DNA from: a virus
Length of the DNA: 39,569 nucleotides
Reading direction: 5' to 3' (one strand)
Virus record (IMG/VR): IMGVR_UViG_3300030419_005289
Coordinates: 1-39,569 of that record
Part shown: positions 20,117-36,386 of the stretch, piece after piece
How positions within the stretch are numbered: the stretch's first letter is position 1
Layout of the letters: each line of letters opens with the position of its first letter
Translations under genes and position numbers: made by a program
The notes under the pieces: generated by a model
Databases searched by the model: none
What the model saw: the letters and a program-made list of their open reading frames with translations, nothing else
Told to the model about the DNA's origin: nothing

Positions 20117-21103
20117 TTAATTACCCCATTGATTATGAGCATCAACTTTTTGTTGAGTGCCTGTGATAAGATTTTCTTCTATTTTCTCAATACTACTTAC
20201 GATTTTTCCACACTGTGACTTACAAAGTGAGAAGCTACGTTCATATCCCTCAAGATATTTACTGAGTTTATTCCAATAATTATAACTAATTATTTTTTCT
20301 ATGGGAACATAAAATCCATTAAATTTTTTAGTAAAGTCTGGTGGATAATAAAAACGTGAGTTATTATTATCATAATAGTGACCGCCTGTCCAACAACACC
20401 TAAAAACTAATCCTTCTGGAGAGATATACCATTTACCATAATCTTCCCATACACAATTAATTTTTCTCTCGGCATTTTTATAATCTTTTGTTCGTTTAAT
20501 ATGGACAAAACTACCACTTTTAGGTCTAGCAAAATCTCTACTCGTTTTTACGGATGAAAATGTATTAAAACCTAAAGTCTTAGCAAGCTCTTTTGCATCA
20601 TCTACTTGATGCTTGTTATGTTCAAATACAATGTATTTCCAGTGAACACTAGCTTGTGTGTTATCTATAACAGATTTTGCATTTGATAATACTGTATTAA
20701 ATTCTGTATTTATTCTATATAAATGATGGGTATCAGCTAACCCATCTAAATCAAAATTTATAATATCATCTTTTTGTAATATCTTACCTACATCTGCCCA
20801 ATATTCATGATTATGTATTCCACCATTAGTATGTATATTTATTTTAGTTCCATGTTCTTTTACATATGAAATAATTTCTCGAAACTGCTTGTTCATTATA
20901 GAATCACCAAAATTACCATTTAATACTAAAGATTCTAAATTATTTAATAACTTTGGATAAAAAATTTTTTTAAAGGATTCTAGTGTGTAAGTATATTTAG
21001 AATCGTTTAAATTAATTTTATTAATTCGTAAACGATGACAAGCGGGGCATTTTGCATTACACCTAAATGTAAGCTCTGTTGTTAACTGTTTAATGTTTCT
21101 CAT
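20117..21103 (-). CDS. Radical SAM enzyme with C-terminal cysteine cluster (twitch/SPASM-like)
   Basis: 328 residues. The radical SAM motif CNAKCPAC (Cys15, Cys19, Cys22) is near the N-terminus, followed by a TIM-barrel-like alternation of strands and helices (INIHTNGG 89-95, NFDLDG 116-121). The C-terminal region holds Cys217, Cys236, Cys237, Cys294 and Cys298, fitting an auxiliary iron-sulfur site of twitch or SPASM type. Such enzymes cleave SAM to a 5'-deoxyadenosyl radical and often modify peptides or proteins, but the substrate here is unknown. It lies between a tail fibre and an unknown gene, 2-3 nt from each, so it is expressed with virion proteins. Confidence 0.85.
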   Translation of the reverse strand: MRNIKQLTTELTFRCNAKCPACHRLRINKINLNDSKYTYTLESFKKIFYPKLLNNLESLVLNGNFGDSIMNKQFREIISYVKEHGTKINIHTNGGIHNHEYWADVGKILQKDDIINFDLDGLADTHHLYRINTEFNTVLSNAKSVIDNTQASVHWKYIVFEHNKHQVDDAKELAKTLGFNTFSSVKTSRDFARPKSGSFVHIKRTKDYKNAERKINCVWEDYGKWYISPEGLVFRCCWTGGHYYDNNNSRFYYPPDFTKKFNGFYVPIEKIISYNYWNKLSKYLEGYERSFSLCKSQCGKIVSSIEKIEENLITGTQQKVDAHNQWGN

Positions 21104-24548: not shown

Positions 24549-27500
24549 TTAAACTCCCTCAGCCGTTATATTAAGTAATGCAGAACTGTCTGCTGCCTTA
24601 TTTGAACCATCATGTTGAAATAATTTTACAGTACCACTGGTATTACTTAATGCAGTAAAAGCACCAAAAGTAGCATTACCTACATCTGTAATTGTTAAAC
24701 TAACAGATGGTGTCCTAGTAAAGTTTTGACCAGACCAATCAATTGTTTTTCCAACTGAATCATATTCTAAATTTGTTGATGTAAAAGTTGATGGTTCTTT
24801 CTTAATTTTATAACGAATTTTATCTATTGTAAAATCATTTTCATCAGGCTTCAAATTATCAATTATAAATTTTAATTGGAACTGTCTAAATTGTGATTCC
24901 CTACCAGTAAATACGGTAAAGCCCTCGTCGTCATTCTCAGGATTAATAAACTGAGCAACGGCAACATTACCCACGGCTTCTGTTCCATGCGGTGAATACC
25001 CTGGAAAGCCCGCTTCATTTGGATCAGAAGTTACAAATGCCTTACCTAGGAAAACATTAGCTTCAGTAGATAGTCTTACCTTTTTAGTTGTAGTTACCGC
25101 TAAGTCACCGCCTTCATAATTAAAACTACTATCATCAGCGTAATCACGAAGATCAACTAATACAAAAGCATTACCTGCATCACCAGTGACATTAGCAAAA
25201 ACATTTGCAGATGAAGAGGTACCATTAGCATTAAATACAGTACCAAGTTCTATTCTATCTGCGTCAATTACTCCTGCTATTAGAGCATAAGAATTTGAAT
25301 TTGCATAATCTCCTTGATCTATGACTCCACCTGAAGAATATGCTGTATAGGATGAAGTATCTAGTCCTGAACCTCCCATAGCTTGTATACTTAGAGTAGT
25401 ATCAGAAACTCGTGTTAATTTAATCTCTTGATTATTCAATTGTGTCATACCAACAATATCATGTAGTATAGCACGATTTCCTGAACCAGTCAAGCCGTGT
25501 GCGGAAGCAGTAGTAATTACCCCTGGATTAGCTCTTGTAATTGCTGAAATGGAGAAAACATCACCGGTATATTTTACGGTTTTAAATATGGCTAAAACAT
25601 TTTGTTTTGGGTTAGCACCTGTAATACCTGCACTTACTGTATCAACTAATGTTTGATTATCTATACTGAATGACACATTAGAACTATTGATAAAGGTGCC
25701 AATTCCCGTAGCTTTAAGCACGTTAGCTGAATTTCCCGCTGTTGGCGCCAAAGATGTGCCACTTACAATATCACTTTTTAAATCAAAATATGTGGTTTTT
25801 GGAGTTTGTGTTCCTACAATATCAATATCCATATCATAAGTTGAATTTAATCCTAAATCTCTAATTTGTGTGGTATATATAGCTTGTGAACCTGTTGTAA
25901 TCAGATCAGTAGCTGAGGCTGTAGATGCAAATCCACTGCTACTTCCATTAAGATTATCTACAGGGCTACCTGGGACAGATGCAATGAATGTTCCATTAGC
26001 GTTATTAGAAGTATTAAAAGAAGGGTAATTTGCTTCTGAAGCATTAGTATTAGTTATATCTGTAAAGTTTGAACTAGGAGAATCTTCGTTAAAAGCTGCA
26101 ACAACTTCAGTATCGACACCTTCAACACTAGTTAATATAGTAGATACTACACTCTCACTAAAGTTACCGCTAGTATCTTTTGTTCTAGCTAAATAAGTAA
26201 ATTCACCAAAAGTATCAATAGGAGATGATTTACGGTTAACACCTGCAGCAACTGATAATACCTCTTCGCCACTGTTAAAATTAGCAACTGTAGCAGTTAC
26301 TTGTCCAGGCTTTCTTCTTATTATAACGTCTTGTAAATCTAAGTCAATAGGATCAGAATATTGCCAAAAAAATGTAAGTTGATTTTTTACTTGTCCTACA
26401 GAAAAATTAGAAACGTTGCTAGGAGGAGCAGTTTTACCTAAAATTACATGATTAGCAGAAGTTGTAATTCCTCTTAATTCTTTATTTAAAGCAGTTATTC
26501 TAACAACTAAGGTATTAACACCAGAAACACTTCCTCTGTCAATATTATTAACAGTGAATCTAACTTTACCATCAGCGTCAACACCTGCCGCAGAAACTTT
26601 TACTGTATTAAAACTAGTTAAGTCAGGAGCTTCACCTGTAATTTTATAAGAAATTTCATAGTCTGTAACTTCTTGTCCAGAGATATGATCAAAAGCTATA
26701 ATAGCTCTTACAGAGACTCCTTTATTCCTATCTATAAATAAAGATTCACTAATTTCAATATTTGTAACTTTTCTTATTGGAATAGCATCTATTATAACAG
26801 ATTTTGTAACAAAAGGACTAGTTCTGCCTTGAGAGTTTCTATTCCTAGCTTTTACTGATATGGGGCCAAAAGTATCAACATTAATTAATCTATCTTGTGT
26901 AAGAAATATTTGATTATACTCCCCGCCTAAACTTAAATCATAAATACCATTGTTTGCAAGTTTCCACTGGCCTGGATAAGTAGCTGTATCATAATCAAGT
27001 GTAAATGTATCACCACTAACATTTCCTAATTTTGCGGTAATATCAGGAGAAATATTTACCATTGCAAATCCACTTACATTAGCTTTTGGAGATTCACCTC
27101 CTAATGTAACTGTATAAATAGAATTAGCAGTCATAGGAGTATTAGAGGTAAATGTATTTGTAGCTTCCTGGCCAGGAGAATAGCTAGTGGCTATTACAGG
27201 AAACACGTTTCCAGAAGCAAACTGTACATTGTCACCAACCTCAATAGCAGGAACAGTATAATGATCTATTAACAATTTAACTTTTGTATCTGCGCTAGTT
27301 AAAGATAAAAATTCAACATTACAGTTAGAAGCTACAGTTCCTGTTTGATCATCTAAGTGTAATGTAAATTTATCGGAGGCTATTTCTACTCCATCTACAA
27401 AAGCTTTGATAAAAGCTTTATTTCTAGGTCGTATATCAAGTGGTTCAATATGGGATGTAGTACTAGCTGATGGATTATCACTAGGAGCAACTAAACTAAC

Positions 27501-30500
27501 AGAATTGCTTCTTGAATAAGTAGTATCAGATCCTGATACATAAAAACTATTATTTTGATAATATCTTGCATCAACCAATTGATTAATTGTTACATAAAAA
27601 GGAGTATCAGGTAAAGCAGTATTTAGTTTTGTCCCATCTGTAGAGGCAGTATTTTCAATAATTAGTTGATTAAAACTTGCTGCTGGACTAGTAACTGAAC
27701 TTTGCGTATTACTATTATAAGATACTATTTCAGAACTATATTGTGTTATACGGGGATTATGGCCTACAAAACCTACAGCTGTCCCTGTATTAGCTTTTTC
27801 ATTGACAGGAAAAGATACTCGTTCTACACCTTTTAATCCTTGAAATGTTAAAGTATCATCATTAGGAGTTAATACATGCTCTGCAAAATTAAAATCGTAA
27901 ACAACATTTAATCCTTCAGTAGTAAAAGCAATATACTTATCGTCTGTTCCACCTTCTGCTACTAAAGATACCTGATTACATAATAATCTAATTTCTCCCG
28001 TTGTCCCAGAAAACCCATTTTTACCTGTTAAAAATACCGGACTAAGACTATCAGCTAACCCAGCAGTATTACCTACTTTAAATGTAGCAGGATACGATGC
28101 TGTTGTAGTTGCTGCGTTTGAGTTAACTACTTTTTGAAGTGCAGTAGGTTGTGAAATAAAATAATCTGTTAATGTTCTAATGGGATAATTAAGAAGTTCT
28201 GTAGTAGTATCAATTGATAAATCTACAGTAACACTGCCATCTGTTAATCTTCTAGGAAAAGTTGAAAGACTAAAACTTGGTGCAGGAGGAGGGATAAAAG
28301 GAGATGTCATATCCGTGTAAGCTGTAGGAGTATAATCAATAAAGGTATCTGAGTCTACATAAACATTAGATATATACTCAATAGCTTCAATCTGTACTTC
28401 ATGATCATCTGTCCTGTTTAAAGCAGTAACTTTAAATAATTTACCTGCTTTATTTGTGTATAGATCTGCGATTGATGACCCTGGTGTACCAGGATTATTC
28501 ATCTCACCTAACATCCAAAGATCACCCTTAGTAGGTAATGCATTTGCTGTTGAAAAGCCGGAATATGCATCAAAGAGTTGTGTTACAACATTATATCTAT
28601 GTGTTACTCTTATATCAACAAAATCACCACCTACAGTAACATTAGCATTAGTTGTAAGTACTTGAGAAGCGTTTGATGTAACATTTGGTATATCTTTTGT
28701 GGTAGTAAAAACTTTAAATTTTTGGTTATCTACTAAATATAAATCAACATCATCAGAGGATTGGCTAAAGATTCTTAATGCTATAGGTTTTGTGTTTGCG
28801 GTAAAAGTAGTAGAAGTTAATGCGGGTTCTGTAAAGTATTCTAAATATACATTTTGAGTATGCACATTACCACCGACATCAAGATTAGAAGTTTCCCTTA
28901 TTTTACCACCAAAACCAAAACTAACTCCTGATTGTTTTTGAGATACAGAGATAACATCCCCAGGTGTTAATGTAATAGCTTCGATACTTGTAGTGAATTG
29001 AACTCTTCTTCGTAAATATCTTGATGCAGCTATTTGATAGTGAGCGTAGCGTAAAGCTTGACTTCTTCGAGTAACACCTATTAAGTCTAAAGAAGCAATA
29101 TTTTCTAATGCGCTTTTATCATTGCCATCATTCCTATCAATAGTATCTATACGAACAGTTTCTCTTTTATAGTGGTTAGTAGGTTCTATATAGCTAACGT
29201 CTACTCCAGTAATTATTTCACTTTCTTTAATACCAGATACTTGAAAAGATGCATCTTTAATATTTACTTCATTAAACATTGCTACAGGAAGTTCATTAGG
29301 CATATCAACAGCTAATGTTAGCTTACCCATATTATACACTAAAACAGATCTAAAGATCGCAGCCACTTGGTTTAAAATATCCATTACCTGACCTTGATCA
29401 GAGATAGTTATATCGCAAGTGAATCTTCTCTCAACTATCTCTGTTCCGATAGTTAAACCAATTTGATTTTCTCTAGTGCTTGTAAACTTGCCTCTAGGTT
29501 TATGCCTAAAAGACCCGTCAGCTAAGGCGATTACACCATCAAATTTACCTGTTTGCGGATTTACTGCATCACAATATTGAGCTATTTGATAAAATCTATA
29601 TTTATCTATAACATCTTCTGGAATACCTAATCCATAGGTATTATTGGTAAGTATGTCATAAATAATCCATACAGGATTCTGTGTCCAACTATATACAAAT
29701 GTACCATCCCAAGTGCCTATATATATTTCAGGATTACTAGCTGTAAGTTTTGTTCCTGGCCCAGGAAACTGTAGTGAATAACCATTTTCTTGATAGGAAT
29801 TATCCGTTGAGCCTCCAGAGGTAACTTCAACCTCTCTCCAATCTATTTCTCCATCTTCTAAAACAGGTTGATTATAATTAGAGGGTACTTTAACAATAAG
29901 ACCTTTTACTAGTGATGTAAAGTTTGGGACACCGCCTGCATGTTCAGAATGAGCTTTTATAGCATAACCAATATGTGCTGTTCGCGGATATGCCTGTCTA
30001 GCAAATTCAATTTCAGTCCAACCTTTAACAGTAATAGTATCATGAATCTTAGAGGAATCACTGTCATCAGAGGTTTTCTTAATAGTGAATCTATAGCCAT
30101 CATTTGAACGATGCTCTTCTGGAATTAATATGGTTACGTCAAAACTAAAGTTAGTGTTTGTTTTTCCTGAAATAGTCTCGATATGAGGTTCCGCATTAGG
30201 CATAATGCTATTAGCACCTGTTCTATCAAATACCTCAATAGATAATTCAGCGGTATGTCCATGAATATTTCCTCTATCATCTTGATTTATTAATCCTCTC
30301 AGATTAAAATTAAATCTAAGAGCATCCCAAGCCTGAGCACTTGTATCCTGTAGCTCTACCTTAGATTCAGGAATTCCACCAACATTGCCTTTTCTTAATA
30401 CAACTTGTGATTGAAAATCTTGTGGAGTTGCTATCTCTTCACCAAAAATCCTTAGCGGACCCTGATGTATACTACCATTGTTAACTAAGGTTTTAAATAG

Positions 30501-31175
30501 ATTTGTATTCTCATCTCCATCACCATCAAGATTTACCATGTCATCAATAGATCCATCTTGTATCTCTATATCTTGAGGACCATTTGGGTTTATTCTATAT
30601 ACAGGTCCTTCTCCTAAACCTGATGTGACAAATAATATATCTGTAGAAAATTTATCATTTGGATCTTCTACAGCACCACCGCCACCACCACCACCTTTAT
30701 CTCCTCCTTTATTATGTACACGGACGTCATTGGCTATATAAGTGTGCTGCTTAGAGACAGTAAAATTATAACTATCACCCTTCCCACCATATTCAATAGA
30801 TTCGATAGGAGATATTTTACCGTCATAAGTAACTACCTGATCATCTTCAGTAAATTTTCCAGCCTCTAGAAATAACCCATCTTCAAGAAGTAACCAGTGA
30901 TTAGGCGTAACAATAAACTCTCCTGCCCAATGTTTAATAATTATAAATTCATCATCTTCATGTTGATATAACTGAGTAACACTTGCTGGACCAAGATTAC
31001 CTAGTTTATCAAAAGACATTACTAAATCACCAACATTAATATCCTCAATGTTTTTTTGTGAATCATCTGCCATGCGAATTTTAGTGCCTGCAATAAAACA
31101 GCCACCCTTGCCGGCACCAGTAATATGTGGTATACGTTGTCCATCATACACCGTATATTGTCTACTAGCAGTCAT
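24549..31175 (-). CDS. gpJ-like tail-tip/host specificity protein with an inserted Hint domain
   Basis: 2208 residues, far longer than lambda gpJ (about 1130). The first 25 residues end GAGKGG, then a Hint domain (26-155, see separate entry), a Gly-rich linker KGGDKGGGGGGG, and the gpJ homology: GEGPVYRINPNG (about 190-202), LVKGLIVKVPSNYN, IYIGTWDGTFVYSWTQNP and VWIIYDILTNNTYGLG are close to lambda gpJ patterns. The C-terminal half has fibronectin III-like and beta-rich modules with no further recognisable enzyme. It should form the trimeric tail-tip hub and contact the receptor. The start overlaps the gpI-like stop. The Hint insertion is unusual and is the main reason to look again. Confidence 0.93.
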   Translation of the reverse strand: MTASRQYTVYDGQRIPHITGAGKGGCFIAGTKIRMADDSQKNIEDINVGDLVMSFDKLGNLGPASVTQLYQHEDDEFIIIKHWAGEFIVTPNHWLLLEDGLFLEAGKFTEDDQVVTYDGKISPIESIEYGGKGDSYNFTVSKQHTYIANDVRVHNKGGDKGGGGGGGAVEDPNDKFSTDILFVTSGLGEGPVYRINPNGPQDIEIQDGSIDDMVNLDGDGDENTNLFKTLVNNGSIHQGPLRIFGEEIATPQDFQSQVVLRKGNVGGIPESKVELQDTSAQAWDALRFNFNLRGLINQDDRGNIHGHTAELSIEVFDRTGANSIMPNAEPHIETISGKTNTNFSFDVTILIPEEHRSNDGYRFTIKKTSDDSDSSKIHDTITVKGWTEIEFARQAYPRTAHIGYAIKAHSEHAGGVPNFTSLVKGLIVKVPSNYNQPVLEDGEIDWREVEVTSGGSTDNSYQENGYSLQFPGPGTKLTASNPEIYIGTWDGTFVYSWTQNPVWIIYDILTNNTYGLGIPEDVIDKYRFYQIAQYCDAVNPQTGKFDGVIALADGSFRHKPRGKFTSTRENQIGLTIGTEIVERRFTCDITISDQGQVMDILNQVAAIFRSVLVYNMGKLTLAVDMPNELPVAMFNEVNIKDASFQVSGIKESEIITGVDVSYIEPTNHYKRETVRIDTIDRNDGNDKSALENIASLDLIGVTRRSQALRYAHYQIAASRYLRRRVQFTTSIEAITLTPGDVISVSQKQSGVSFGFGGKIRETSNLDVGGNVHTQNVYLEYFTEPALTSTTFTANTKPIALRIFSQSSDDVDLYLVDNQKFKVFTTTKDIPNVTSNASQVLTTNANVTVGGDFVDIRVTHRYNVVTQLFDAYSGFSTANALPTKGDLWMLGEMNNPGTPGSSIADLYTNKAGKLFKVTALNRTDDHEVQIEAIEYISNVYVDSDTFIDYTPTAYTDMTSPFIPPPAPSFSLSTFPRRLTDGSVTVDLSIDTTTELLNYPIRTLTDYFISQPTALQKVVNSNAATTTASYPATFKVGNTAGLADSLSPVFLTGKNGFSGTTGEIRLLCNQVSLVAEGGTDDKYIAFTTEGLNVVYDFNFAEHVLTPNDDTLTFQGLKGVERVSFPVNEKANTGTAVGFVGHNPRITQYSSEIVSYNSNTQSSVTSPAASFNQLIIENTASTDGTKLNTALPDTPFYVTINQLVDARYYQNNSFYVSGSDTTYSRSNSVSLVAPSDNPSASTTSHIEPLDIRPRNKAFIKAFVDGVEIASDKFTLHLDDQTGTVASNCNVEFLSLTSADTKVKLLIDHYTVPAIEVGDNVQFASGNVFPVIATSYSPGQEATNTFTSNTPMTANSIYTVTLGGESPKANVSGFAMVNISPDITAKLGNVSGDTFTLDYDTATYPGQWKLANNGIYDLSLGGEYNQIFLTQDRLINVDTFGPISVKARNRNSQGRTSPFVTKSVIIDAIPIRKVTNIEISESLFIDRNKGVSVRAIIAFDHISGQEVTDYEISYKITGEAPDLTSFNTVKVSAAGVDADGKVRFTVNNIDRGSVSGVNTLVVRITALNKELRGITTSANHVILGKTAPPSNVSNFSVGQVKNQLTFFWQYSDPIDLDLQDVIIRRKPGQVTATVANFNSGEEVLSVAAGVNRKSSPIDTFGEFTYLARTKDTSGNFSESVVSTILTSVEGVDTEVVAAFNEDSPSSNFTDITNTNASEANYPSFNTSNNANGTFIASVPGSPVDNLNGSSSGFASTASATDLITTGSQAIYTTQIRDLGLNSTYDMDIDIVGTQTPKTTYFDLKSDIVSGTSLAPTAGNSANVLKATGIGTFINSSNVSFSIDNQTLVDTVSAGITGANPKQNVLAIFKTVKYTGDVFSISAITRANPGVITTASAHGLTGSGNRAILHDIVGMTQLNNQEIKLTRVSDTTLSIQAMGGSGLDTSSYTAYSSGGVIDQGDYANSNSYALIAGVIDADRIELGTVFNANGTSSSANVFANVTGDAGNAFVLVDLRDYADDSSFNYEGGDLAVTTTKKVRLSTEANVFLGKAFVTSDPNEAGFPGYSPHGTEAVGNVAVAQFINPENDDEGFTVFTGRESQFRQFQLKFIIDNLKPDENDFTIDKIRYKIKKEPSTFTSTNLEYDSVGKTIDWSGQNFTRTPSVSLTITDVGNATFGAFTALSNTSGTVKLFQHDGSNKAADSSALLNITAEGV
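30711..31100 (-). other. Hint (intein-like, BIL-type) domain inside the gpJ-like protein
   Basis: Residues 26-155 of the 2208-residue protein. Block A starts CFIAGTKIRMADDSQKNIED at Cys26, preceded by Gly-Gly; block B has VTPNHWLL (Thr90, His93); the C-terminal block is HTYIANDVRVHN, ending His154-Asn155. At about 130 residues it has no homing endonuclease. The residue after Asn is Lys156, so no Cys, Ser or Thr is available at the +1 position, and ordinary intein splicing is unlikely; BIL-type domains with such ends can cleave or rarely splice. Flanks GAGKGG and KGGDKGG are similar, so precise removal would leave a continuous Gly/Lys-rich linker. Confidence 0.85.
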
Positions 31176-31978
31176 TCTGATGATACCGCCTCTGCTGCTA
31201 ATGGTGTTTGATTAGCATTGAATATTGATTGAACACTAGGAGCACTATCCTGAGCATGTTGTTGACTTAAAACATATCCACTTAAAAATTGCCCTCCAAC
31301 TCTAAATAATCCATAGTTAAGTAATATAGGAGTACCTGCAGTGGTTGTATTTTTTAAAGATCCAAACATATTATTTTCAGTTCTAGTGCCCGAATCTTTA
31401 GTAACCTGCATATCTTGAGATGGAGGTTTAGATGCAAATAACATTTGCATAGCAGAAAGAGCTAAATTACCAATCATACCTTTAACAAAACTAGGCATAC
31501 CAGCAAAAGCTGCTCCTAAACCGCTAAAAAATCCACCACCACTACCAATACCAATATTGGTAGCTGCTTCGGCAGCAAAAAACTTAATTCCACCGGCAGT
31601 AGTAAAACCACCACCGCCACCATATAAACCTGCACCCATAGGACCAGCAGCAACCACTGCTGCAATTGCAACTGCTGCAAATAAAAATCCTTTTTTACCG
31701 CCACTACCACAAACAACTGGAGCTATATAAATTACTTCTCCATCTTTTATCTTTTTAAATGGATAGTTTTGTTTTTCAATTACTTTTAAATCACTATTTA
31801 AATAACTAATACTTTCTTGAGATGATCCATTTTTAATTTGAGCTATATAAGTTTTAAATTTAGGATGCACAGCCGAAAGATAACTCTCAATATCATAAAG
31901 AGAATTTATATCAATTTTATACTCAAGATCATTAAAATAATCTTTAAATGTTGGACTTATTTTAACAGTTGCTAACAT
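31172..31978 (-). CDS. gpI-like tail assembly protein
   Basis: 268 residues with the layout of lambda tail assembly protein I: a ubiquitin-like beta-grasp N-terminal region (1-85), a hydrophobic Gly/Ala-rich segment (about 95-185, AAVAIAAVVAAGPMGAG and later), and a C-terminal part ending with NTTTAGTPILLNYGLFRVGGQFLSGY, close to the conserved end of gpI. Gene order K-I-J matches lambda. It is probably needed for tail-tip initiation and may not remain in the mature virion. The ATG is immediately after the JAMM stop, and its own stop overlaps the gpJ-like ATG. Confidence 0.85.
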   Translation of the reverse strand: MLATVKISPTFKDYFNDLEYKIDINSLYDIESYLSAVHPKFKTYIAQIKNGSSQESISYLNSDLKVIEKQNYPFKKIKDGEVIYIAPVVCGSGGKKGFLFAAVAIAAVVAAGPMGAGLYGGGGGFTTAGGIKFFAAEAATNIGIGSGGGFFSGLGAAFAGMPSFVKGMIGNLALSAMQMLFASKPPSQDMQVTKDSGTRTENNMFGSLKNTTTAGTPILLNYGLFRVGGQFLSGYVLSQQHAQDSAPSVQSIFNANQTPLAAEAVSSE

Positions 31979-32344
31979 TTATTTAAAGTGATCCTCTCGT
32001 AATTTAGTAAATTTTAGTGCGTCAATCTTTTTATCCATCCAGTATATATAAAATTTATTATTGAAGCCAACTAAAAATTTATACTGTTGAAATGCAGCGC
32101 TGACTTTATCATCTTGACTAGGTATTGGCTTATCACTACCTGGGTGTGAATGAAAAACCCCCCAAATGTTCTCATACTTAATAAATACCGCAGGATCTAA
32201 AATAAAAGTAAGAGTGGGCTCCATGCTTATATTATCACAAGGAACATAGGTAAAATCATCTAAAATTACTCCACAAGCTTCTCTGGGATAATCCCTTAAA
32301 GCATGATTATTCATATCATTTATTAATTTGGCATACCAACCCAT
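31979..32344 (-). CDS. JAMM/Mov34 peptidase-like tail protein (lambda gpK N-terminal type)
   Basis: 121 residues. The zinc-binding JAMM motif is complete: Glu22 (REACGV), His65-Ser-His67-Pro (HSHPG), Ser76 and Asp79 (PSQDD). It corresponds to the N-terminal half of lambda gpK, which in lambda is fused to an NlpC/P60 domain; here two separate NlpC/P60-like genes precede it. The activity may process tail proteins or help peptidoglycan passage. It overlaps the upstream gene by 22 nt; the start ATG at 32344 is the only good one. Confidence 0.9.
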   Translation of the reverse strand: MGWYAKLINDMNNHALRDYPREACGVILDDFTYVPCDNISMEPTLTFILDPAVFIKYENIWGVFHSHPGSDKPIPSQDDKVSAAFQQYKFLVGFNNKFYIYWMDKKIDALKFTKLREDHFK

Positions 32345-32805
32345 TTATATATTCCCATAGTGTAAGTTTTATAATATCTCCCATAAGGTGCTATCCAACT
32401 TTTTTTATCAATCATTGTTTGTAGTATCTTGTTATCACCAATAAAAAGAGCACAATGATTAGTTACATTGGTAGAACCAAGAGACATAGTGATAACATTA
32501 AATTTTTCAGCTTTTAGTACTTTTTGCCAACCATATTTTAAATTACCTCCTTTTTCAAAAAAACGATCATGTGTTTTACGATACCAATTCTCATCTACAA
32601 TATTACACCAATCAGCAGTATCATAAGGTATATCAATATTGAGTTGTTCTCTATAAACTAATCTACAGAGATTAAAACAATCTATACCAGTTTCTGGATT
32701 ATCGCCTAAATGAAGATATGGTAAATTAAGATATTTACTATACCAAGGATTTATGTCTGTATACGGCGTAGAGTGCTCTAAGCCATTCGTTCGCAATTGA
32801 TTCAT
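32323..32805 (-). CDS. NlpC/P60-like cell-wall peptidase, tail-associated (second copy)
   Basis: 160 residues from ATG 32805, which has SD-like GAGGGGAG upstream at 11 nt; a longer start at 32883 would add 26 residues that lie in the coding region of the preceding gene and look unlike a protein start. The catalytic Cys43 is in GIDCFNLCRLVY and the catalytic His is at 117 (TNHCALFIGDNKILQ), fitting an NlpC/P60 papain-like fold. It resembles the C-terminal part of lambda gpK, which cleaves peptidoglycan stem peptides during DNA entry. Overlaps the JAMM gene at its end. Confidence 0.82.
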   Translation of the reverse strand: MNQLRTNGLEHSTPYTDINPWYSKYLNLPYLHLGDNPETGIDCFNLCRLVYREQLNIDIPYDTADWCNIVDENWYRKTHDRFFEKGGNLKYGWQKVLKAEKFNVITMSLGSTNVTNHCALFIGDNKILQTMIDKKSWIAPYGRYYKTYTMGIYKWVGMPN

Positions 32806-33148
32806 ATCTTGATGTTCTCCCCTCTTCAAGATGTAACATATGACACGGCTTAATAAACATGCCGAAATGTATCGGTCTTGCAAATGTATTTGATCTAAAT
32901 ACCATTACATCAAAATCTTGAGCTTCTGTCAATGGAACTTTTATGCCATATTGTAATGCCCATTCATCAATTTGCTCTAAGCTAATATTTTTCATCCATC
33001 TTCTATTAGCAATATTTGATGGTATTATTTTTTCTATATCATCAATATCAAGCTCGGTTTTAAAAAATTTATCAATTATAGTAATACAATTAATATTATC
33101 ATAATCGTGTTGTAATCCAATATAGTTTATTAAATTTTCTCGTACCAT
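32738..33148 (-). CDS. NlpC/P60-like protein (first copy)
   Basis: 136 residues. Cys21 (DYDNINCITIIDKFF) fits the catalytic cysteine, and His94 (PIHFGMFI) the catalytic histidine, in the typical order with the preceding DVMVFR strand. It is smaller than the following NlpC/P60-like gene, and their sequences differ strongly. The start ATG (33148) overlaps the radical SAM stop by 19 nt, and the end overlaps the second copy by 68 nt in another frame. It may be a second cell-wall hydrolase or have changed to a structural or chaperone role; the catalytic Asn/His third residue cannot be placed with confidence. Confidence 0.75.
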   Translation of the reverse strand: MVRENLINYIGLQHDYDNINCITIIDKFFKTELDIDDIEKIIPSNIANRRWMKNISLEQIDEWALQYGIKVPLTEAQDFDVMVFRSNTFARPIHFGMFIKPCHMLHLEEGRTSRYESIANEWLRALYAVYRHKSLV

Positions 33149-34308
33149 TCTTCTAACTCTGGATAAATATTTGTAAAAGAAGTATTATTAAGATTATCTA
33201 CTTCATTATTAAATTGTTTAAAATTTTTTAATAGTTTTTCTCTATTTTCTATATCTTTATTTAGATACTCTATATTTTTATTAATATTGTCTTTTTCACT
33301 AGTATTTAACGGTATCTTTTTCTCTAAGATATCAAACTTTTTATTTATACGATTTTTTATATCATTAGGTAATAGTCTCATATCAAAGTGTTTAGGATTA
33401 CCAAGTATACTTAAATATGTTGAAATATTATACGCCTTCATTTGCGCTATTAATTCAGGTGTTGTTAATATGCTATAAATTGATGTAGTACAGCTCACAG
33501 TATTTACATATTTCTTAACTTTTAATAAGTTAGTTATGAACGTGTCCCAATTAAAATTAGTTCTACTATAAGCACAATGTTTTTTATATCCATCAACACT
33601 TGGCCAAAGAGAAATATTATCAAAGTGTTTCCACAATTCAAAAACATCATGATTTTTATAAGTTAGTGTACTTAAATTAGTATTATAAGTTAATTCTACA
33701 TCAGTTTTATTGTTATCAATAAACCATTGTAATAGTTTATAGTGACCATCCATTAATAGAGGTTCACCACCCGCAAAGTAAAAATATTTTACTGTTTGTT
33801 TTATTTTAGCTAAGTACTCCCAAAAATCAGGAGAATCTGTATAATAATCTTCTAATTGTTGAGAAGCATTTTTAAACTGAGAAACTTTTTTTGCATCTTT
33901 AAACCATGTGCTTGAAGAATAAGGGCCGCAAATACGACACTTAAAATTACACTTATTACCAAATCTAATATCTAAATAAATAGGATTATTTGATACGCTT
34001 CCATCTTTAGCTGTTTGATCTTGTAGCTGACTAAGATTATCAAATCGTTTATTTACTTGTTGCCTGTTAGACTCTCCACCTAAATCTTCAATATCATAAC
34101 AAGTTTTCTTACAAATAGCCGGGATATCATTAGAAAGAAACTGTTTTCTAACCTTTTTATACTTATCATTATTAAATATAGAAGAGATAGGTTGTGTATA
34201 ATCACCAACCTTATGACCTGAACTAGGTGATATGTGACAACATAATCTATAATCTCCTTGTATATCACCATACAAGTGCATCCACGGAAGTATACATCCT
34301 TTAGTCAT
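33130..34308 (-). CDS. Radical SAM enzyme with N-terminal twitch/SPASM-like cysteines, in the tail operon
   Basis: 392 residues. An N-terminal cysteine region (Cys5, Cys23, Cys24, Cys66, Cys70; CILPWMHL...RLCCH...CKKTC) is like the half-SPASM or twitch domain, here ahead of the radical SAM core CNFKCRIC (Cys120, Cys124, Cys127) and GGEP (180-183). Such N-terminal arrangement is seen in phage-encoded and anaerobic sulfatase-maturing-like families. The C-terminal third is Lys/Asn-rich helical. It sits between gpL-like and NlpC/P60-like genes, overlapping both by one or a few bases, so it is expressed as part of the tail assembly operon. Substrate unknown. Confidence 0.85.
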   Translation of the reverse strand: MTKGCILPWMHLYGDIQGDYRLCCHISPSSGHKVGDYTQPISSIFNNDKYKKVRKQFLSNDIPAICKKTCYDIEDLGGESNRQQVNKRFDNLSQLQDQTAKDGSVSNNPIYLDIRFGNKCNFKCRICGPYSSSTWFKDAKKVSQFKNASQQLEDYYTDSPDFWEYLAKIKQTVKYFYFAGGEPLLMDGHYKLLQWFIDNNKTDVELTYNTNLSTLTYKNHDVFELWKHFDNISLWPSVDGYKKHCAYSRTNFNWDTFITNLLKVKKYVNTVSCTTSIYSILTTPELIAQMKAYNISTYLSILGNPKHFDMRLLPNDIKNRINKKFDILEKKIPLNTSEKDNINKNIEYLNKDIENREKLLKNFKQFNNEVDNLNNTSFTNIYPELEEWYEKI

Positions 34309-36386
34309 TATTGTCTCGGAATGGTTCTACCAGTAGCAGGAAAGCCTCCAAAGTGAATATCATTATTTCTAATTTGGCATGATAATAAACTTTTACCACA
34401 TATATCTTCACTAGCTAATGTAGCAGCAGAATTATTAGCATGAATAGGATTTGTATTACCTAATAAATTAGTTCCAGGTATAGGAAGTCCCTGACTAGCA
34501 GATGCTACCGTATTTGGGCCAGGATACTGACACTCAGCACCTTTATACTCCCACTGACAAGTATTTTTATAATATTTTCTTTTAGGAACTACAAATTTAA
34601 AATACTGTAACCAAGATGTTAAATTAAAATTAGCTACCGAATCATTTAAACCTTCAAGAGAATCAATCTTAAAGATATCTTCAATAAATGACTCAGGATC
34701 TGCATCAGCATTAATTATATATAAAGGATCACCAATCGTTGTATCAGAGTGCACTGGAGCATCAAGAAATATAAATCTATTTTCTTCTATACCTTGTATT
34801 GTAGCTTCTGTTGAGCCTTTATTACTTTTTACTTTATCACCAACTCTATAAGGCATCGTGCTTACTAATTCATATGCATTACCTAAAATTGACTTCACAG
34901 TTGAATATTCGGGCCAAACATCTAAAAAATTTGCAAAGGTAGATTTTATTTCAACAACAGCACCTAATAAATCACGACTATCTAACTTCTTTTCATCCCA
35001 ATCAGCAGATGATGATCCAGCAGCAGTTGCGACCTCATCATATGTCCAAGAAGCATTTTCTTTACCATACGTACCTTTTACCGTATCACTATAATTAAAG
35101 ACATTAGTGGCTGTTCCATCTATAGTAACCTGTTTAGTCCGTAATTCATATAGAATACTAGCAGCTAAATTAGCTGTTGTTCCTGGAGAACTATCAAAAT
35201 CAGGAAAACCACTCCAATTACTTATTTCATCGGCTTCCATATTAATAGTTCTAGGATCAATACCATTTACATATTCATGATTAACTAAAGCCATAGCAGA
35301 GTTAGCTTTGTTATTACCTGCTATAAAGGGATCTTCTACTAATGCACTTATTGTATTTTCAAAATTAAATATATTTACAGATATCTCATTAATTTCTCCA
35401 TCACTTGCTTGACTAATTGGAGAAATATTTATAGGGTATGGTGAATAGCTATCACCATCAAAAGTTACATTATAACTTATATCAGATATTATATCCCCAT
35501 TTATCTCTGCTATTTTAAAAGGAAAGTCATTGGGCCAAGAAAGACCTGCGCCTGCACCTGTAGGATTACCATTTGAATTTGGAGGATACCACTCACCAGG
35601 ATAGTAAATTTTTACAAGCCTAACTAGTGGATTTTGGGTAAAAGCATTTTTCTCTGCAATATAAGGTGAAGGAGCAATTGAGGTTATAACATTACTTATC
35701 GCAGTATTAGCATTAGATACAAAAACAGCTGGTTCAAAAGTTGTAGCCTGTAAATTAGCTGTTTCAACTCTTAGAGTAACATTGGTATTGGCACCAATTC
35801 TTTGATTTGGAAAATGAATTGCATTTGCAAAAAAGGGAGTAATATTAAAAGATGTTTGGGACTCAAGAGTTAACGAACCTCCGAAAGATCCTGTTACAGT
35901 CGCATCAGAAGCTAGATCGCCTGTCCATATGTATTCTTTTGTACTAACCATGACATTATTTAAGAATACTGTAATTTCTTCTTTTGTATTAGCAGGAACT
36001 GGTAGTATAAATGTATCAATAACACTTGCGCCTAATGAATCTCCAGCAGTTTTAATTGTACTTCTTATTGTGGCCAAGTCTGAATTAATAGCCGCAAAAT
36101 TAGCTTTGTTGATGGTAGAAACTGTACCAGTATTACTATATTTTAATGTAGAAGATATAGTTCTAGTTGTAATTGATTTAGAATGTACATTTTCTGATGG
36201 TATGAATTTTACAGAAGAATTAGAATACTTTACCTTCATAGTATTAGCACTAGTATCTACATTAGCAATAATTGCTTTTGCACCACTAGAACTACCTATA
36301 ATAGTGTTACCTACCGTAAAAATTCCAGTATTAGCTACTACATTAGGGCTAAAACCTAATATAACATCATAATTTCTGCCAGTCAT
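34308..36386 (-). CDS. gpL-like minor tail protein with [4Fe-4S] cysteine set
   Basis: 692 residues, about three times lambda gpL (232). The C-terminal end has the four cysteines of the lambda gpL iron-sulfur domain: Cys610, Cys619, Cys663 and Cys670, in CQWEYKGAEC and DICGKSLLSC, followed by HFGGFPA. The N-terminal two-thirds is Ser/Thr/Asn-rich beta structure absent from gpL, with a possible carbohydrate-binding or extension role. gpL closes the tail-tip ring below the tape measure. Gene order M-L is as in lambda, and the ATG overlaps the gpM-like stop by one base. Confidence 0.85.
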   Translation of the reverse strand: MTGRNYDVILGFSPNVVANTGIFTVGNTIIGSSSGAKAIIANVDTSANTMKVKYSNSSVKFIPSENVHSKSITTRTISSTLKYSNTGTVSTINKANFAAINSDLATIRSTIKTAGDSLGASVIDTFILPVPANTKEEITVFLNNVMVSTKEYIWTGDLASDATVTGSFGGSLTLESQTSFNITPFFANAIHFPNQRIGANTNVTLRVETANLQATTFEPAVFVSNANTAISNVITSIAPSPYIAEKNAFTQNPLVRLVKIYYPGEWYPPNSNGNPTGAGAGLSWPNDFPFKIAEINGDIISDISYNVTFDGDSYSPYPINISPISQASDGEINEISVNIFNFENTISALVEDPFIAGNNKANSAMALVNHEYVNGIDPRTINMEADEISNWSGFPDFDSSPGTTANLAASILYELRTKQVTIDGTATNVFNYSDTVKGTYGKENASWTYDEVATAAGSSSADWDEKKLDSRDLLGAVVEIKSTFANFLDVWPEYSTVKSILGNAYELVSTMPYRVGDKVKSNKGSTEATIQGIEENRFIFLDAPVHSDTTIGDPLYIINADADPESFIEDIFKIDSLEGLNDSVANFNLTSWLQYFKFVVPKRKYYKNTCQWEYKGAECQYPGPNTVASASQGLPIPGTNLLGNTNPIHANNSAATLASEDICGKSLLSCQIRNNDIHFGGFPATGRTIPRQ

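Follow-up and report, generated by a model that had tools for sequence, protein, structure and literature searches.

The gpJ-like tail-tip protein encoded in the window (the whole 39,569-nucleotide stretch of viral DNA analysed here) contains, at residues 26-155, what its predicted structure identifies as a complete Hint domain, with bacterial intein-like (BIL) domains rather than inteins as its nearest solved relatives. Similar domains sit in the N-terminal Gly-rich linker of gpJ in many divergent uncultured phages, and this recurrence makes it probable that the copy in the window is functional. Our preferred reading, held at a probability of roughly 0.5, is that the gpJ Hint is an active A-type BIL that would excise itself from the Gly/Lys linker, with ligation as the likeliest main outcome.

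Identification of the Hint domain

Features were located in the window as follows.

24549..31175 (-), gpJ-like tail-tip (hub/central fibre) protein, host of the Hint, 2208 aa
31101..31175 (-), N-terminal peptide of gpJ, residues 1-25, equivalent of an N-extein, ending in GAGKGG
30711..31100 (-), Hint (A-type BIL-like) domain, residues 26-155
31098..31100 (-), Cys26, N-terminal nucleophile, present in 31/31 gpJ Hints
30897..30908 (-), block B TPNH, residues 90-93, with T90, N92 and H93 in 31/31
30711..30716 (-), C-terminal His154-Asn155, with N155 in 31/31 and H154 in 30/31
30675..30710 (-), Lys156 (+1) and Gly/Lys linker, residues 156-167; +1 is Lys or Gly in the relatives counted
28935..29399 (-), Phage-tail_3 domain of gpJ, residues 593-747, E 8.8e-19
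31172..31978 (-), gpI-like neighbour (phrog_32), a family with its own Hint in other phages (gpI of L115)

Translation of 24549-31175 (-) gave MTASRQYTVYDGQRIPHITGAGKGG-C26FIAGT...T90PNH93...H154N155-K156GGDKGGGGGGG. The sequence-only reading had placed the domain at residues 26-155 (30711-31100) with Cys26 after GG, a TxxH block B (Thr90/His93), His154-Asn155 and Lys156, all of which match the translation. The N-terminal peptide (1-25) carries the motif Y...PxIxG, common to Hint-less gpJ proteins. The domain is 130 aa long in the window's gpJ and 129-152 aa in relatives.

An AlphaFold2 model built from a 26-sequence alignment of relatives had a Hint fold; pLDDT was 90-98 over the domain itself and less than 50 in its disordered flanks to either side. 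Foldseek with this model returned 66 PDB matches at E<=0.001, led by BIL domains and inteins, with Tetrahymena BUBL BIL2 and the C. thermocellum BIL 2lwy placed before inteins. E-values for the Hint family profile were 2.3e-23 against 2lwy, 3e-17 to 7e-17 against BUBL BIL2 and 3e-15 against the gp41-1 intein. The earlier assignment to the Hint/BIL fold is thus upheld by predicted fold, Foldseek and profile matches; a chance motif was excluded on the fold and profile evidence. Single-sequence Pfam scores were just below the curated cut-offs (PT-HINT, 27.0 versus 27.7 bits; Hint, 26.7 versus 29.7), and an automatic pipeline applying these thresholds would therefore overlook the gpJ Hint.

Membership of the A-type BILs was judged on four properties. 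The fold is nearer to BILs than to inteins; of the residues expected at the two ends, Cys (or Ser) first and His-Asn last, C26 and H154-N155 are present and conserved; the +1 residue is other than Cys, Ser or Thr (Lys156; Lys or Gly in relatives); and the insertion region is non-conserved, being a Gly/Lys linker of variable length. Canonical (class 1) inteins have Cys, Ser or Thr at +1, a conserved functional insertion site and a homing endonuclease (dispensable in mini-inteins). The gpJ Hint has Lys156 (the lack of a nucleophile at +1 being class-wide), lies in a disordered Gly/Lys linker and, at 130 aa, has no endonuclease. A canonical intein was excluded by the +1 residue and the insertion site. 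An active homing element was also excluded, as an endonuclease-sized insert was found in no relative.

The +1 residue was counted in 49 distinct Hints from viral contigs, mostly tail proteins, and was Lys in 33, Gly in 15 and Cys, Ser or Thr in 0, the one row that was neither Lys nor Gly being a pattern artefact. It was Lys in 27 and Gly in 4 of the 31 non-redundant gpJ Hints. Related bacterial and archaeal Hints mostly had Lys at this position, followed by Asp, Gly, Ala, Gln and Glu, with Thr in 2/89. Control phage-enzyme inteins, where the end was readable, had Cys (the K453 helicase and an unannotated Proteus phage protein) or Ser (a portal protein and a DNA polymerase). The missing +1 nucleophile, claimed for the window from its letters, was therefore confirmed there (Lys156) and found likewise in tail-protein relatives, making it typical of the class rather than a flaw in the window's copy.

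Host protein and tail-tip cassette

The 2208-aa ORF matched phrog_31 (E 6.9e-93), FNIII-A_GpJ and Phage-tail_3 were both over the Pfam cut-off, and lambda gpJ was among the PDB matches. With these two domains and with gpL, NlpC/P60, JAB and gpI genes upstream, the locus is of the lambda gpJ type. The gpL homologue (34308-36386 (-), 692 aa) matches gpL only in its C-terminal part (559-686). A twitch-domain radical SAM protein (33130-34308 (-); NF033640, E 1.5e-106) is encoded between gpL and the NlpC/P60 gene in the tail-tip operon, and homologues are found in many related tail loci, Hint-bearing or Hint-less. A second radical SAM match, weak and under the Pfam cut-off, is at 20117-21103 (-), downstream of collar/fibre genes. 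Within 31172-33148 (-), JAB is a separate ORF and two NlpC/P60-like ORFs overlap; in lambda a single protein contains both JAB and NlpC/P60. The gpI-like protein of this segment has a weakly MoaD/ubiquitin-like N-half ending in CGSGGKKG.

The cassette of gpL, radical SAM (in many), NlpC/P60, JAB, gpI and gpJ surrounds Hint-bearing and Hint-less gpJ genes alike, so a tail of this kind does not need the Hint. The suggestion that self-cleavage times assembly or host entry found no support, since many close homologues with the same K-I-J cassette are Hint-less.

Distribution among tail proteins

Searching with the gpJ core, rather than the Hint, as query gave 80 viral contigs with two types of gpJ N-terminus. 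Hint-less alleles typically read Y/F...VPxIxG[A/S/G]xGGGKGGGGG...EDPNSLFSTD with an uninterrupted linker. Hint-bearing alleles have the same kind of N-terminus, the Gly/Lys linker being broken by C...HN. The comparison of gpJ proteins with and without the insert, proposed in the sequence-only reading, thus gave Hint-less homologues with the linker unbroken. Relatives were extended by two further gpJ-core scans from distant members (sets 2 and 3) and by Hint-alignment scans. After exclusion of proteins with a missing N-terminus or uncertain start, the Hint was present in 25/79 scored core-found proteins in set 1, 18/18 in set 2 and 6/66 in set 3. None of the phage-record matches examined was a Hint-bearing gpJ.

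Several variants were recorded. In one gpJ clade (L070, L072, L073, L076, L305-L313) the Hint ends in Ser-Asn rather than His-Asn. In L101, L102 and L164 a second N-peptide-like motif and Gly linker come after the Hint, which looks like a duplication of the gpJ start on either side of it. Outside gpJ, marine phage collagen-like tail proteins (L002) have a related Hint in which the C-terminal HN is absent, and other marine phage proteins (L143, L147-L151) have related Hints and terminate in or just past HN-K or HN-GGGNKR. Tandem Hints of the HN-K type, with only KG or KGGG linkers between them, were seen in apparently secreted proteins (L193, L196, L199, L203, L208, L213, L230, L234, L238) from genomes of Legionella, Lentisphaerae, Verrucomicrobia and Syntrophales.

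A second host is gpI. Hint-bearing gpI proteins (L108, L109, L115-L121, L124-L126, L129) are about 440 aa long and match phrog_32 and, beyond the Hint, a tail-protein family. The Hint lies in a glycine run between the N-terminal half and a hydrophobic stretch, has Gly at +1 and scores 43.6 bits against PT-HINT, above the cut-off of 27.7. In these phages gpJ begins differently, and no Hint was seen in it. An AlphaFold2 model of one Hint-bearing gpI was poor (pLDDT 42.9) and was not used. As described in PMC1779556, gpI consists of a ubiquitin-like domain, a Gly-rich linker and a C-terminal domain, and the JAB peptidase is predicted to cut it at the linker. Cryo-EM of lambda resolved only the C-terminal part of gpI, according to PMC11101478 and PMC10721106.

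Selection and exchange

C26, F27, T90, N92, H93 and N155 are identical in 31/31 non-redundant gpJ Hints and H154 in 30/31, at pairwise identities as low as 26%. In informative pairs the dN/dS of the Hint was about 0.02-0.27, mostly <0.2 and of the same order as that of the gpJ core; very close pairs (e.g. the L252-L268 group) held too few changes to be informative. These patterns indicate that the domain is maintained under function, with strong purifying selection on the cleavage residues, and it is this conservation that points to auto-cleavage or splicing activity. The invariant catalytic residues and the dN/dS excluded a degraded intein relic.

Trees were quick LG+G4 reconstructions with SH-aLRT as the sole support, and distant members had been found partly through the Hint. 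In the window's clade, Hint-less alleles form one supported group beside the Hint-bearing ones, and a single change suffices. Across the wider gpJ tree, Hint presence or absence requires 8 changes, at least 3 of them forced by supported branches, so gains or losses of the Hint have occurred repeatedly at this linker. Identities of Hint and core disagree (L005/L006: core 95%, Hint 76%; L011/L086: core 73%, Hint 94%), which leaves strictly vertical inheritance unsupported and suggests that Hint alleles have been exchanged between gpJ genes. The gpJ and gpI Hints form one supported set of 51 rows, 9 of them from bacterial genomes, including at least one gpJ (L164).

Proposed processing route

In the type-A BIL route, as given in PMC4031507, an N-terminal thioester is formed, Asn cyclisation cleaves the C-terminus, and the freed amine attacks the thioester. 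The BIL route had been offered in the sequence-only reading, and it is plausible, all residues for the type-A reaction being present. By analogy, Cys26 would accept the acyl group of Gly25 as a thioester through an N-S acyl shift, and Asn155 would cyclise and release the amine of Lys156. This amine would then attack the Gly25 thioester, the domain would depart and the linker would be rejoined, at least partly, while some gpJ molecules would end up as cleaved halves. A Gly acyl donor and a Gly/Lys amine between flexible flanks should favour direct aminolysis. The tail-tip cassette functions whether or not gpJ carries the Hint, as would be expected of a domain that removes itself.

Two-ended self-cleavage without ligation, in which the N-peptide would be lost or bound non-covalently and gpJ would start at Lys156, appears somewhat unlikely. 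Cleavage products dominate in type-A BILs according to PMC4031507, and PMC7765530, in disagreement with that paper, holds that type-A BILs are unable to ligate. After joining, the flanks would span about 24 residues, and the C-side alone is 20, near the full Hint-less linker of 18; these lengths do not favour ligation, and as a test of splicing they are not decisive. Hints at protein C-termini that end in HN-K would likewise speak against ligation, with nothing left to ligate, and where an N-peptide-like motif follows the Hint (L101, L102, L164) the first peptide might be expendable. Loss of the peptide is opposed by the retention of PxIxG in Hint-bearing gpJ and by its rate of change. The dN/dS of N-peptide and core was 0.43/0.20 in Hint-bearing and 0.41/0.18 in Hint-less gpJ (0.50 versus 0.27 and 0.08 versus 0.05 in a narrower bin), from non-independent pairs with synonymous sites near saturation. 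Constraint relative to the core is thus alike in the two groups, which argues mildly against simple discarding of the peptide.

An inert insert, remaining in mature gpJ as a folded decoration of a flexible linker, is improbable. The disordered flanks would accommodate a 130-residue domain, and protein-ending Hints keep HN though almost nothing is left to cleave off; the invariant cleavage residues and low dN/dS are contrary to it. Less probable still is acyl transfer, in which an amine different from the alpha-amine of Lys156, for instance on a lysine side chain in the linker or in an adjacent tail protein, would resolve the Gly25 thioester and give an isopeptide-linked N-peptide. Lys is the commonest +1 residue, HN-K is retained even where the Hint ends the protein, and Hedgehog Hint domains pass an acyl group to a third molecule (PMC5874633). 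The +1 residue is, however, Gly rather than Lys in a good part of the family, and the conjugate is purely hypothetical. Self-excision with ligation was rated a little higher than plain cleavage, and an inert domain far lower than either.

A wider proposal, which we consider doubtful as a whole, is that phages have domesticated a BIL and made it a permanent component of tail-tip assembly. The Hint, placed in the Gly-rich linker of gpJ (elsewhere of gpI), would have its thioester resolved by a Gly/Lys amine. Either the linker would be religated by direct aminolysis, sortase-like and with no nucleophilic side chain, or the N-peptide (in gpI, the ubiquitin-like half) would be attached to another tail-tip amine.

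Comparison with known systems

The findings place a BIL-type Hint repeatedly in the siphophage tail hub, a machine whose structure has been well studied. Because gpJ occurs naturally both with and without the Hint, one can ask directly which role (ligation, cleavage or transfer) a type-A BIL has in nature, and tail Hints may yield natural ligation domains that act between Gly-rich flanks without a nucleophilic +1. No report of a BIL or Hint domain in gpJ or gpI was found in the literature covered, which is weak evidence, as subscription papers were mostly outside its scope. Type-A BIL domains are already known; new relative to the literature covered are their presence in a tail-hub protein across many lineages, at a fixed site in the linker, the second host gpI, and Lys or Gly at +1 throughout the class.

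Phage enzyme mini-inteins (the Vibrio phage K453 helicase; terminase, portal and polymerase) share the Hint fold, Cys1 and the HN end, and Vibrio helicase inteins were the best tblastn matches among phage records. They differ from the gpJ Hint in having Cys or Ser at +1, where the end is readable, and in being inserted within an enzyme. For PT-HINT (pretoxin Hint, PF07591), the gpI Hint passes the Pfam cut-off and the gpJ Hint nearly does (27.0 bits), but the host of the tail Hints is a tail protein and no toxin domain was found after the Hint. BUBL BIL2 of Tetrahymena thermophila (6y75, 6tmm) was the top fold match and second-best profile match to the gpJ Hint. BUBL by its name denotes a locus joining ubiquitin-like and BIL domains, as in Hint-bearing gpI; BIL2 is, however, eukaryotic and not a tail protein, and the ubiquitin-like parallel is with gpI of other phages, not with the window's gpJ. 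Closest by sequence profile is the C. thermocellum A-type BIL 2lwy (target TM-score 0.87, rmsd 1.6 A; profile E 2.3e-23), which like the gpJ Hint has Cys1, a His-Asn end, an insertion in a variable region and neither a +1 nucleophile nor an endonuclease. According to two reviews (PMC7765530, PMC5874633), BILs sit in variable, non-conserved bacterial proteins, whereas the gpJ Hint sits in a phage tail hub, at a fixed linker position and in many lineages, and the tail set differs from 2lwy in having Lys or Gly at +1 throughout.
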